Assembly (NCBI GenBank): GCA_903847405.1
Contig: CAINDP010000115.1
Span: 1 to 64,000 of the forward strand
Reading direction: 5' to 3'
Length of the DNA stretch: 64,000 nt
Source: an uncultured Myxococcales bacterium
GTDB lineage: Bacteria; Myxococcota_A; UBA9042; DTJE01
Shown: piece after piece, positions 19,768 to 45,655 of the stretch
Layout: each line of letters opens with the position of its first letter
Numbering within the stretch: position 1 is the stretch's first letter
Position numbers and translations under genes: made by a program
The notes under the pieces: generated by a model
Told to the model about the DNA's origin: nothing
Databases searched by the model: none
The model's input: the letters and a program-made list of their open reading frames with translations, nothing else

Positions 19768-19820
19768 GGAAAATGGGGACAGACACCATTTCGCGAAAAT
19801 GGTGTCTGTCCCCATTTTCC
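19768..19820 (+). repeat. REP-like palindrome, perfect 24-bp arms
   Basis: Arms 19768-19791 and 19797-19820 are perfect reverse complements around a 5-bp centre (CGCGA); the core is ATGGGGACAGACACC. It sits between the promoter side of the M29-Usp gene and the lon stop codon. Related copies are at 32400-32441, 40289-40340 and 45631-45655. Confidence 0.92.
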
Positions 19821-28804: not shown

Positions 28805-31800
28805 TCACGGCGTCGGCAGCGGCATCCCCGACGTTTCCAGCAGCGCCAGGATCACCGCCCCGATCCCGTACGGAATGTCGTCCTCCACCTTCACTTTCGC
28901 GTATTCGGCGAACGTCCCGGCGGTGGTGGGCCCGGAAGTTCCCGTGATCACCGGCCCGTCCGTGCCTTCGACGACCCGCGAACGGATCCCCTGCAGGGCC
29001 AGCGCGATGGACGGCAGGACCTCGTCGCCCAGCAGTCCGTACCGCCAGGCCCGGGCCATGCCGAAGGCGAACAGGCCGCCGACGGACGTTTCCAGGTAGG
29101 TTTCGCCGGGGCGGTTCAGGACCGTCCACCACAGGCCGGTGGCGGGATCCTGCGCGGCACGGGCGGCGTTCGTCAGGCGGCGCAGCAGGGACAGGGCGAA
29201 GGGCTGGCGGGCGCCGCCCGGAGTGCCGGCCAGGCGCAGGTACTCGGCCACCGACGCCAGGACCCAGCCGTTGCCGCGTCCCCAGTAGATGCCCTCGTCC
29301 TGGGGAAGCGCCCAGTTCACGGCGTGATGCAGGAAGCCCGCGGGTTCCTGCAGCAGTTCCTGGAACACGCGGAACTGGGTTTCGGCATCCAGCCAGGGGG
29401 TCGACGTCGGGCCGTCCAGTGCGCCGATCCGCGCCAGGGGCACGCCGACCATCCACAGGCTGTCCACCCACAGCGTGATGCCCATGATTTCCAGGGTGCC
29501 CAGGTGGTTGATGCCGCCTTCCGGGGTGCGCAGCGCCTCGTGCTCCGCGTACTCCAGGAAGTCGTCCACCACCGCCCGGTACTTCGCGTCGCCGGTCGCC
29601 TGCCACACGTAGAACGCCGCCGTCACCGGCGAGGCCGTGTCGCTGGACATCATGGTGTAGCCCGCCGCGACGTGGTGGTCGATCCACGCCTTCACGTAGG
29701 CCAGCAGTTCGGGATCGCCCGTCACCCGGTGCAGTTCGCAGAACGACGACATCATCACTGACGGGACCCAGTCCCAGGACAGTTTGTCGGCGGCGACGCG
29801 GGTCATCTGGCGGTGGGCGATGGCGGTCGCCAGGGCGACGTTGTCCGATTCCGGGGCGCGCTTCTGGGCAAAGCAGGCGTTGCTGATCGGCACGCCGGGC
29901 GCGCACGCGTCGAAGGGCGGGTCCAGGACCCGGGCCGTGCCGGACACGGCGTCGGGCAGCGGGACGGCTGTTCCGTAAAGTTCCAGTGTGTTTCCGCCGT
30001 CGGCGTAGGCGAGGCCCCCGTTCAGCGCCAGCACCGTGATGCGGGCGTTCGACGTCACGATCACGCCGTCCACGTCCAGCGTTTCCGGGGCGCCGGCCTC
30101 GCGCAGCCAGACCAGGTCGATGTGCGCGTCCCCTGCAGGTCCGTAGGTCCCCGTGATCGTCCAGGCCGCGCTGCCTTCCCCGGACGCGACCCGGGTCACG
30201 GTCAGTTGGCCGTCGGGCATCCCGGCCGCGATGCCGGTCTTCCAGGGCGCCAGCACGGCCAGGAAGCCGGGAGCGACGGCGTTGATCGTGGCGTCCGCCA
30301 CGGCGTGGTTGCCGTATCCGCTGTCGATCGAGTGCGCGTGGGGCGCCTGGCCGGCGACAAACGGTGGTTCTGCGACGACCGGTTCCCCGGCGGTGGAGGC
30401 GATTGCGACGCGGATGGCGGCCTTGTCGCGGCGGAACGTGGCCCCGGTGGCGTCGATGGCGTAGGTCCCGCCTGCGTCGTAGCCCGCGTAGCCGTTCACC
30501 CGCCAGGTGAAGTCCCGGGCGGTGCCGACGTCGGACTGGACCTGGTCCGCCACGACCGTGTAGCGGTCGCGCACCATCAGCAGGGTCCTCGTGATCGTGG
30601 CCTGCTGGTAGGTCTGCCGCACCTGCGCGACGTCGATGTTGTCCCCGTCGTGGAACGTGGTCATGGTGGCGTCGGCGTCGCCCCAGTCGTTCAGCAGGCC
30701 CCGGGTCGGCGCCCCCTGGCCGTCGATCAGGATGACGTTGTGGGACGGCGCGTCAGCCGTGACGGCGTTGTCCAGGTTGTTCGGCTTGTAGTAGCCCGAG
30801 TCGAGCAACAGGTACTCGCCGAACGCCGCCAGGGCGAAGGACGTCCCATCGGCGTGGTCGTGCAGGGTCTTGCGGGCCGCGCCCGATTCGCCCAGCAACA
30901 GCACCCAGAGGTCGTCGGTGCCCCAGCCGGTCCGCAGCGTCGCATGGCCCGACACGAGGTGCCCGCTGGATTTCCACGACGGCTCGTTGTCCACCGGCGC
31001 TGTGGTGATGTCGAACAGGTGCTGGGGCATCAGGTCCATCCCGCGCGTCATGGACATGTCATTGTTGATGTTGTGCCGCGCGTCCCAGGCGAACCAGCCG
31101 TACCCCGAGATCCCCGACAGCAGCAGCCCGGCGTTCTGCACCCGCATCGAGCCGTCGCCGGTGGTCGATCGCAGGCCGTTGGGCATGCGGTGGTCCAGGG
31201 ACCACTGGAACGCCGACCACAGGCGCTGCGAATGGCTGTTGGCCGCGAAGGGCAACGCCAGGGGGTCCTCCCACTGGTAGGGCATGCCGTCGGTGCAGTC
31301 GATGGGCGCCCAGGGATCCACGTCGTTGCGGTTGATGCAGTTGCGGTACAGAAGGCCGTCCGCCGGCCAGGCGTTGCGCATCGCCAGGAAGAACGCGATG
31401 GCGGGCGGGAAGCCGAAGCCGAAGTAGAAGGGTTCCTCGCTGACCACGCCGTCGTCCTGGATGTACCGGCCGGTCGGGCCCCACAGGTAGTCCAGTTCGC
31501 CGGCCGCGAAGTCCAGGATCTCCCGGCTGCGGGGCTCGTCGGGGAAGGCGAGTGCCACAAATCCCATGGCCGATGTCGTGCGGATCGGGTGGTTGTTCTG
31601 GCTGACCGTCAGCGCCGTCCAGCGGGAGTAGTCGTCAAGAACGTAGCGTTCGTAGAACTTCTCGTTGATCGTGACCAGGCGCCGGCGCGCTTCGGCGGCT
31701 TCCGCGGCCGGGAACATCGTGGTGCCCGCCAGCAGGTCCCAGGCGACGGCAAACGAGATCGAGCCGTCAGCCATTCGGATGTTGATGTCCCAGACCGTAT

Positions 31801-32344
31801 TCGTTTCCCAGTCGGTCCGGATGCGGCCAAAGCAGCCGCGCGCCTTCTCGGCCGCGGCCGAGTCGTCCAGCAGCCAAGCCAGCACGGCGTTTGCTTGCGC
31901 GATGCGCCCGTCGTTCCCGAACGTTCCACTGTCCCACTCGTCGCCCGTGTCGTCGATGCATTCGCCTGCGGCGGTCGCACGGATGCTGCCCAGGATCCCG
32001 GCCCAGGGCTCCCGATCGATGCGGGCGAGGATCGCCGCCTTCCGGTCCGGCCGCGTCACGAGGGTGGGGTGCTCGGTCCAGCCGGGCAGGGGGCCGGGGT
32101 CGCCACCGAGGGTGTCGGCCGGAGGCACGTCGGGGACGTCCACCGAGGGCACGTCCTCGACGTCGGGCGTGCCCGGATCCGCCGGATCCCCGGGCACGTC
32201 GAGGTCCCCGAGCAGGTCCCCCGGGACGTCCGTTGCCGGGATATCCACGGCGGGCGTGGACGAGGTGTCGCCGCAGCCGGCCGCGCCTGCCAGCCCGGCC
32301 ACCACGATTGCCACCAGGAAACTGCGAACGTGCCGGCACTTCAT
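28805..32344 (-). CDS. Lipoprotein fusing heparinase II/III-like lyase and GH105-like hydrolase
   Basis: A 1179-residue lipoprotein (lipobox LAGAAGC, then a DVP linker). Residues ~80-430 form an alpha/alpha-toroid with the motif SQNNHPIR (near 249), and ~450-780 a beta-sandwich with HDHADGTSFALAAFGEYLLLD (near 494); both are hallmarks of heparinase II/III/alginate-lyase-like polysaccharide lyases. Residues ~823-1179 match GH105/GH88 unsaturated uronyl hydrolases: LWVDSLWM (catalytic Asp near 958), YWGRGNGW (near 1021) and GETYLETSVGGLFAFGMARAW. A lyase leaves an unsaturated uronate that the second domain would remove. I use the ATG at 32342-32344 (GGAGGAACCCC before it); the frame runs on to 33133 but overlaps another gene. 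Confidence 0.85.
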   Translation of the reverse strand: MKCRHVRSFLVAIVVAGLAGAAGCGDTSSTPAVDIPATDVPGDLLGDLDVPGDPADPGTPDVEDVPSVDVPDVPPADTLGGDPGPLPGWTEHPTLVTRPDRKAAILARIDREPWAGILGSIRATAAGECIDDTGDEWDSGTFGNDGRIAQANAVLAWLLDDSAAAEKARGCFGRIRTDWETNTVWDINIRMADGSISFAVAWDLLAGTTMFPAAEAAEARRRLVTINEKFYERYVLDDYSRWTALTVSQNNHPIRTTSAMGFVALAFPDEPRSREILDFAAGELDYLWGPTGRYIQDDGVVSEEPFYFGFGFPPAIAFFLAMRNAWPADGLLYRNCINRNDVDPWAPIDCTDGMPYQWEDPLALPFAANSHSQRLWSAFQWSLDHRMPNGLRSTTGDGSMRVQNAGLLLSGISGYGWFAWDARHNINNDMSMTRGMDLMPQHLFDITTAPVDNEPSWKSSGHLVSGHATLRTGWGTDDLWVLLLGESGAARKTLHDHADGTSFALAAFGEYLLLDSGYYKPNNLDNAVTADAPSHNVILIDGQGAPTRGLLNDWGDADATMTTFHDGDNIDVAQVRQTYQQATITRTLLMVRDRYTVVADQVQSDVGTARDFTWRVNGYAGYDAGGTYAIDATGATFRRDKAAIRVAIASTAGEPVVAEPPFVAGQAPHAHSIDSGYGNHAVADATINAVAPGFLAVLAPWKTGIAAGMPDGQLTVTRVASGEGSAAWTITGTYGPAGDAHIDLVWLREAGAPETLDVDGVIVTSNARITVLALNGGLAYADGGNTLELYGTAVPLPDAVSGTARVLDPPFDACAPGVPISNACFAQKRAPESDNVALATAIAHRQMTRVAADKLSWDWVPSVMMSSFCELHRVTGDPELLAYVKAWIDHHVAAGYTMMSSDTASPVTAAFYVWQATGDAKYRAVVDDFLEYAEHEALRTPEGGINHLGTLEIMGITLWVDSLWMVGVPLARIGALDGPTSTPWLDAETQFRVFQELLQEPAGFLHHAVNWALPQDEGIYWGRGNGWVLASVAEYLRLAGTPGGARQPFALSLLRRLTNAARAAQDPATGLWWTVLNRPGETYLETSVGGLFAFGMARAWRYGLLGDEVLPSIALALQGIRSRVVEGTDGPVITGTSGPTTAGTFAEYAKVKVEDDIPYGIGAVILALLETSGMPLPTP

Positions 32345-32399
32345 GCGGGGTTCCTCCGGAGGCCGTTTGCAGCGTAGCCGACCGGCGGAAATGGTGCCA

Positions 32400-32441
32400 C
32401 GGAAAATGGGGACAGAAAATGGTGTCTGTCCCCATTTTCCG
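32400..32441 (+). repeat. REP-like palindrome, 16-bp arms
   Basis: CGGAAAATGGGGACAG (32400-32415) and CTGTCCCCATTTTCCG (32426-32441) are perfect reverse complements around a 10-bp loop. It lies in the divergent gap between the lyase-hydrolase and NicO-type genes and shares its core with the repeat at 19768-19820. Confidence 0.9.
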
Positions 32442-40288: not shown

Positions 40289-40340
40289 GGAAATGGGGAC
40301 AGGCACCGATTTCCGGAAATGGGGACAGACACCAATTTCC
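40289..40340 (+). repeat. Two tandem REP-like units
   Basis: Two 26-bp direct copies of GGAAATGGGGACAGRCACCRATTTCC (40289-40314 and 40315-40340), each with inverted GGAAAT/ATTTCC ends. Unlike the other copies they are arranged head-to-tail. Confidence 0.92.
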
Positions 40341-45630: not shown

Positions 45631-45655
45631 AGAAATGGTGTCTGTCCCCATTTCT
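45631..45655 (+). repeat. Single REP-like unit
   Basis: One 25-bp unit, AGAAATGG-TGTCTGTCC-CCATTTCT, whose ends are 8-bp inverted repeats; it is the reverse-complement orientation of the ATGGGGACAGACACC core. Confidence 0.85.

Follow-up and report, generated by a model that had tools for sequence, protein, structure and literature searches.

The fusion gene and its features

The window (the whole 64,000-nucleotide stretch of DNA that was analysed, from a lake-type myxobacterial genome) contains on its minus strand a complete gene whose frame, running from 32344 to 28805, is translated into a protein of 1179 amino acids (P0001) without any internal stop. The coordinates 28805-32344 given in an earlier note on this DNA, which had been made from the sequence without database searches, proved exact, and the strand, absent from that note, is minus. 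Pfam finds Hepar_II_III_C at residues 484-616 (E 2.7e-10, 40.6 bits against a cut-off of 24) and Glyco_hydro_88 (PF07470) at residues 851-1171 (E 2.1e-45, 155.7 bits against a cut-off of 26.6). The uninterrupted frame, with a Pfam match for each half, thus bears out the claim that one polypeptide joins a heparinase II/III-like lyase to a GH105-like hydrolase, and the motifs quoted with that claim (SQNNHP, HDHADGTSF, LWVDSLWM, YWGRGNGW and GETYLETS) are all present in the translation. The toroid part of the lyase half is marked by no Pfam family, and was detected by profile search and in the structure model. A match to DUF3303 (E 0.14) was disregarded. The features of the locus are as follows:

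32401..32440, minus strand: inverted repeat of 40 nt, located upstream of the fusion gene and containing the REP-like GGGGACAGACACC (sequence and counts)
32353..32357, minus strand: Shine-Dalgarno-like GGAGG, 8 nt 5' of the ATG at 32344 (read from the sequence)
28805..32344, minus strand: complete lyase-GH105 fusion gene, 1179 aa, P0001 (frame, Pfam, relatives and ribosome-binding site)
32273..32344, minus strand: signal peptide (residues 1-24) ending with the lipobox-like ...GLAGAAGC (translation and alignments)
32093..32272, minus strand: acidic linker rich in D, P and V, of low model confidence, residues 25-84 (model and pN/pS)
29945..32092, minus strand: lyase half, helical toroid followed by beta-sandwich, residues 85-800 (Pfam, profile and model)
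29849..29944, minus strand: junction, residues 801-832 (alignment with separate GH105 proteins)
28808..29848, minus strand: GH105 half, residues 833-1179 (Pfam, profile, residue alignment and model)

The N-terminus has the appearance of a lipoprotein-type signal, and the protein is probably secreted and lipid-anchored. Cys24 of the lipobox, which was read by eye, is invariant in 5/5 fusions and in 10/10 rows of the lyase alignment, and together with the signal peptide it speaks for the N-terminal part of the earlier proposal of a lipid anchor. The lipobox of P0001 (A-A-G-C) is less typical than that of several relatives. The linker that follows is poorly conserved, with pN/pS of 0.69-0.76.

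Structure prediction had been recommended in the earlier note, and the model used here was built from 59 aligned rows, in preference to one from five rows (pLDDT 43.5). The mean pLDDT of the 59-row model is 88.4 and its pTM 0.73, values of pLDDT below 50 being found in the N-terminal 80 residues and in three short stretches. The model gives a lyase fold similar to that of the PL39 alginate lyase Dp0100 and a GH105 fold similar to that of YteR. Residues 85-807 of the model match Dp0100 with Z 33.1 (626 residues, 2.9 Å), the next lyase folds below it being PL40 (Z 27.3) and PL15 entries (Z 25.7-27.1), and the C-terminal half matches YteR with Z 46.0 (341 residues, 2.2 Å). Foldseek, run with the same model, ranks Dp0100 at the top and recovers the same GH105 entries.

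Residues of the two halves

Heparinase II/III-type lyases composed of a toroid and a beta-sandwich make up families PL12, 15, 17, 21, 33 and 39. The presence of Hepar_II_III_C and of the toroid/beta-sandwich fold (Pfam, model) places the N-terminal half of P0001 among them, and the motif residues of this type, Asn-His, Tyr and His-x-His, are all present. In profile searches this half matches PL39 Dp0100 (E 1.7e-16) and PL15 Atu3025 (E 1.1e-14). Its key residues are N251, H252, Y307, H495, H497, D515 and H535; in the profile alignments H252 falls opposite the position mutated to Ala in 6jpn, and H495 opposite the one mutated in 3afl (H531A). Y307, D515 and H535 are kept in all 31 lyase rows and H252 in 28 of the 31, while H495, H497 and D499 are kept in 30/31, the row of G106 being gapped there. 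According to the available part of PMC11921355, the catalytic pair of Dp0100 is His187/Tyr239, with His acting as the base for guluronate-type substrates, and Tyr being able to perform both steps for mannuronate-type ones.

The Pfam family PF07470 covers both GH88 and GH105 and does not split them. Membership of the C-terminal half in GH105 is indicated by the PF07470 match combined with the (alpha/alpha)6 fold, the nearest solved chains being GH105, and in the profile search of this half GH105 PDB entries rank first. Seven of the nine YteR pocket residues, as listed in PMC4528949 (seen in part), are identical in 36/36 GH105 rows. In P0001 the pocket is matched by H947, W959, D961, M965, H1007, W1021 and W1027. 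D961, kept in 36/36 rows, falls opposite the catalytic Asp of YteR, the position mutated in the D143N variant (2gh4), and the remaining six correspond to His132, Trp141, Met147, His189, Trp211 and Trp217 of YteR, respectively. Tyr41 of YteR is replaced by Trp (W859) in P0001; that position is also Trp in RhiN and YesR, where the position of Asp88 is Asn, as the accessible text of PMC4528949 has it. D902 lies near YteR Asp88, but the profile alignment (counted by eye) puts it opposite Asp85; the position is Asp in 35 of the 36 GH105 rows. The concern that one of the halves might lack its catalytic residues was not borne out, as neither is without those that could be compared. Apart from this GH105 half, no GH88/105 domain was found in the same genome.

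Fused and unfused arrangements in relatives

The full-length fusion was found in five of the 52 genomes of the relatives search, and the same five were found among 377 Myxococcota sampled, the own genome being counted in both cases. Three of the host genomes belong to the genus of the window and two to its sister genus, and the other four fusions are 80, 67, 55 and 55% identical to P0001. Between fused orthologues (three pairs) pN/pS amounts to 0.29-0.34 in the lyase half and to 0.17-0.41 in the GH105 half; both halves are, judging from these ratios, under purifying selection.

Local profile searches on fetched stretches identified a lyase of this family, complete or almost so, in 27 genomes (paralogues excluded), and 23 of these 27 lyase genes are coupled to GH105, either by fusion or by adjacency. 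Five are fused, six have a close GH105 gene following them, 12 adjoin a GH105 of a more distant type (GH105 comes first in 11 of these pairs and the lyase in one), and for four no adjoining GH105 was seen. These four are in G270, G177, G288 and G096; the contigs carrying the lyases of G270 and G096 are 5.8 and 6.6 kb long, and in G288 and G096 a GH105 is present on another contig. Left out of the 27 were lyase pieces at contig ends in G259 and G045 (in the latter a lyase tail followed by GH105), three GH105-less paralogues (a partial copy in G000, full copies in G001 and G002) and distant lyases of 26-30% identity. The statement that the two enzymes are separate proteins in known loci therefore holds for other Myxococcota, in which they are encoded by neighbouring separate genes.

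In five separate pairs with the lyase gene preceding that of GH105, each gene has a lipoprotein-like signal of its own. The junction of P0001 (VLDPPFDAC) aligns with PFDWC, which directly follows the signal peptide when GH105 is a separate protein, and is looser than either half (pN/pS 0.26-0.94 in three pairs of fused orthologues). Since the junction aligns with the start of mature GH105 and the separate genes each carry a signal, the fusion looks like the outcome of losing the lyase stop codon, together with the spacer and the signal peptide of GH105. It would have arisen, in a common ancestor of the sister genus and the genus of the window, from a lipoprotein gene for the lyase and an adjacent one for GH105 that came after it. 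A possible near-fusion intermediate is offered by L046 (3664-3672), where 3 bases separate the lyase stop from the GTG start of GH105, the two genes sharing a frame.

A search for fusions in Bacteroidota covered 296 genomes with the alignment A1 (no more than two candidates being scored in each) and 296 genomes with PF07940, where five frames longer than 1000 aa were checked among the matches listed. Among these matches Pfam found no GH88 in the PF07940 frames of more than 1000 aa from G377, G391 and G443, and G490 and G513 gave no GH105 match in frames of at least 200 aa. For the latter two genomes 1027-aa Hepar_II_III_C frames are listed (L134, L135), but these frames were not found in the fetched stretches, in which no table-11 frame is longer than 612.

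A paralogue devoid of the GH105 half

In the GH105 tree the five fused domains form one clade (100/99), which is sister to separate GH105s of family f6 (100/98). In the lyase tree the fused lyases group in a single clade (100/100) together with the paralogues of G000, G001 and G002 that have no GH105, and these paralogues are placed beside the fused copies of the same genus (93/85; 92/86 without a remote row), the sister genus remaining outside. A constraint keeping the fused lyases together was rejected with p-AU 0.028, a modest value given that the group was defined once the tree was known. The paralogues (L025, L026 and L027, all from the window's genus) have NNI, not NNH, at the proposed catalytic-base position, so that residue 252 is Ile in 3/3 of them and His in 28/28 other lyases. 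They are devoid of the GH105 half where the end of the gene is visible; the full extent of the G000 paralogue is not visible because it is split across contigs C91 and C21. On the simplest reading of the trees, the fusion would have come first, followed by duplication, and one copy would then have lost both its GH105 half and His252. The order could also have been duplication first and then two fusions, which is less simple.

Genomic surroundings

No polysaccharide-utilisation genes are located beside the fusion; its neighbours are uvrB, a DsbD-like gene, UPF0047 and lipoproteins, which give no useful clue to the substrate. In the genome, which is 96.7% complete, KDPG aldolase (PF01081) was not found at E 0.001 and neither was a true KduI, the only candidate being an under-cut-off PF04962 protein (L124, G000:C233:1803-2630) that scores as IolB-like (82.8 bits against an NCBIfam cut-off of 205). 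As both a PF01081 aldolase and a true KduI are missing from these searches, the standard route for using the unsaturated sugar set free by the enzyme was not found, which tells against a textbook pathway. With no sugar genes among the neighbours either, one may speculate that the organism uses the products otherwise, or degrades a coat or matrix rather than feeds.

The inverted repeat upstream of the fusion gene is probably unrelated to the work of the enzyme. The REP-like 13-mer that it holds, GGGGACAGACACC, occurs in the window at 19775-19813, 32421-32433, 40295-40333 and 45637-45649, in five exact copies and one with a single mismatch, against 0.17 expected. The genome has 207 exact copies, and the reversed control gave 0. 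There is a single Y1_Tnp (RAYT-type) gene in the genome (C82:35045-35383), and a copy of GGGGACAGACACC lies about 420 bases from it. Another combination of domains in one frame, a TatD-type DNase domain with a radical SAM domain, was noted at L036 (11183-12664).

Discussion

The action of a lyase and then of an unsaturated uronyl hydrolase represents two standard consecutive steps in the breakdown of uronate polysaccharides. We consider it likely that P0001 is a secreted, probably lipid-anchored protein combining both activities, predicted to perform beta-elimination and then trimming. The N-terminal toroid/beta-sandwich lyase would cleave a uronate-containing polysaccharide by beta-elimination, with His252 and Tyr307 as the putative base and acid, and the non-reducing end created by such cleavage would carry a 4,5-unsaturated uronate. 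This residue would in turn be removed by the C-terminal GH105 half, with Asp961 as the presumed catalytic Asp. The overall interpretation put forward in the earlier note stands in part: the two enzyme halves, the single polypeptide, the kept pocket residues, the lipoprotein-type N-terminus and the separate proteins in relatives were all found, and it is the catalysis, the order of action and the anchoring of P0001 that we infer.

As to the substrate, alginate pathways are not known to need GH105, and alginate is therefore the least likely of the candidates named earlier (glycosaminoglycans, alginate, ulvan and rhamnogalacturonan), even though the nearest lyase fold acts on it.

What is gained by joining the two enzymes is a separate problem. 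The chances are about even that both halves are active with no channelling between them, the fusion merely fixing a 1:1 ratio and sharing one signal peptide and anchor. Such a view is consistent with relatives managing with separate adjacent lipoproteins, and with the shortness and poor conservation of the junction. On the other hand, the fusion was kept in two genera at 55% identity, which suggests some use, yet this argument is weak either way. The name of the GH105 family does not fix the reaction either, because one GH105 was reported as a xylanase (PMC6106730, seen in part), and the C-terminal half might have another job, e.g. removal of a saturated terminal sugar that exposes the site for the lyase. 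Its best NCBIfam match is indeed a beta-galactosidase of GH105 fold, at 126 bits, under the cut-off of 420. However, the YteR pocket residues are kept, GH105 enzymes of two different types are repeatedly found paired with the lyase in the phylum, and a GH105 adjoins a heparinase-type lyase in a Bacteroides locus, all of which makes this other job clearly improbable.

An assembly or sequencing artefact joining two genes might be suspected because elsewhere one commonly finds two separate genes side by side, and a frameshift at the joint was a danger pointed out in the earlier note. Its probability is negligible. The same fusion, at 55-80% identity, is present in five Myxococcota genomes that were assembled separately, and it is thus confirmed as genuine and not a frameshift. 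Four of these assemblies show it without a flagged stop, the TGA flagged in the fifth (G011) is outside the aligned 1190-codon frame, and the low pN/pS in both halves points to purifying selection on each.

Returning to the bifunctional enzyme, a more far-reaching picture can be drawn, which we regard as rather unlikely. The fusion would be a self-sufficient outer-membrane machine, handing the unsaturated end from the lyase to the hydrolase without a SusCD-type locus. After duplication, the second copy would have dropped the GH105 half and the His base, and might now be a Tyr-only lyase acting on the other C5 epimer, or on another polymer whose unsaturated product needs no trimming.

No natural fusion of a lyase with GH88/GH105 was found in the open-access literature searched (subscription papers being mostly outside it), and the pair formed by this lyase family and its regular GH105 partner was found nowhere described for Myxococcota in that literature. 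GH105 fusions to other enzymes do exist, as exemplified by L118 with GH105, GDSL esterase and GH43 domains. A natural fusion provides a direct test of whether coupling of the lyase and the hydrolase helps. Controls are available among the relatives, both as unfused pairs, which occur in either gene order, and as a duplicated lyase that has neither GH105 nor the base His.

Comparison with known systems

The nearest lyase fold is that of PL39 alginate lyase Dp0100 (PDB 6jp4), with which Asn-His, Tyr and His-x-His are aligned; however, it is only 18% identical to the lyase half, its solved chain has no GH105, and the substrate may differ. The PL15 exo-lyases Atu3025 (3a0o) and exoHep (6lja) have the same two-part fold (Z 25.7 and 26.9) and, according to the part of PMC11921355 available, a His/Tyr pair, but they are separate proteins of 17 and 13% identity. 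YteR (1nc5, 2gh4), a GH105 unsaturated rhamnogalacturonyl hydrolase, shares the catalytic Asp and most pocket residues with the C-terminal half, whereas it is free-standing, 20% identical, and has a Tyr (Tyr41) where the fusion has Trp.

The locus of Bacteroides timonensis (L045), arranged as SusC-SusD-heparinase-like lyase-GH88/105-FAD oxidoreductase-GH3, also places a lyase beside GH105, but as separate genes of distant sequence within a SusCD locus. Two consecutive degradation steps are combined in one protein by the multimodular P36 (GH78-sulfatase) of the ulvan pathway, although other enzyme families are involved, and the ulvan lyase and GH105 are separate in that pathway, as far as the accessible part of PMC8511951 goes. 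Another parallel comes from the separate lyase and GH105 pairs of other Myxococcota (L010-L014, L046), which represent the same families in the same order. They differ from the fusion in having two genes and two signal peptides, and in L010-L014 the lyases are 41-44% and the GH105 proteins 53-56% identical to the respective halves of P0001.
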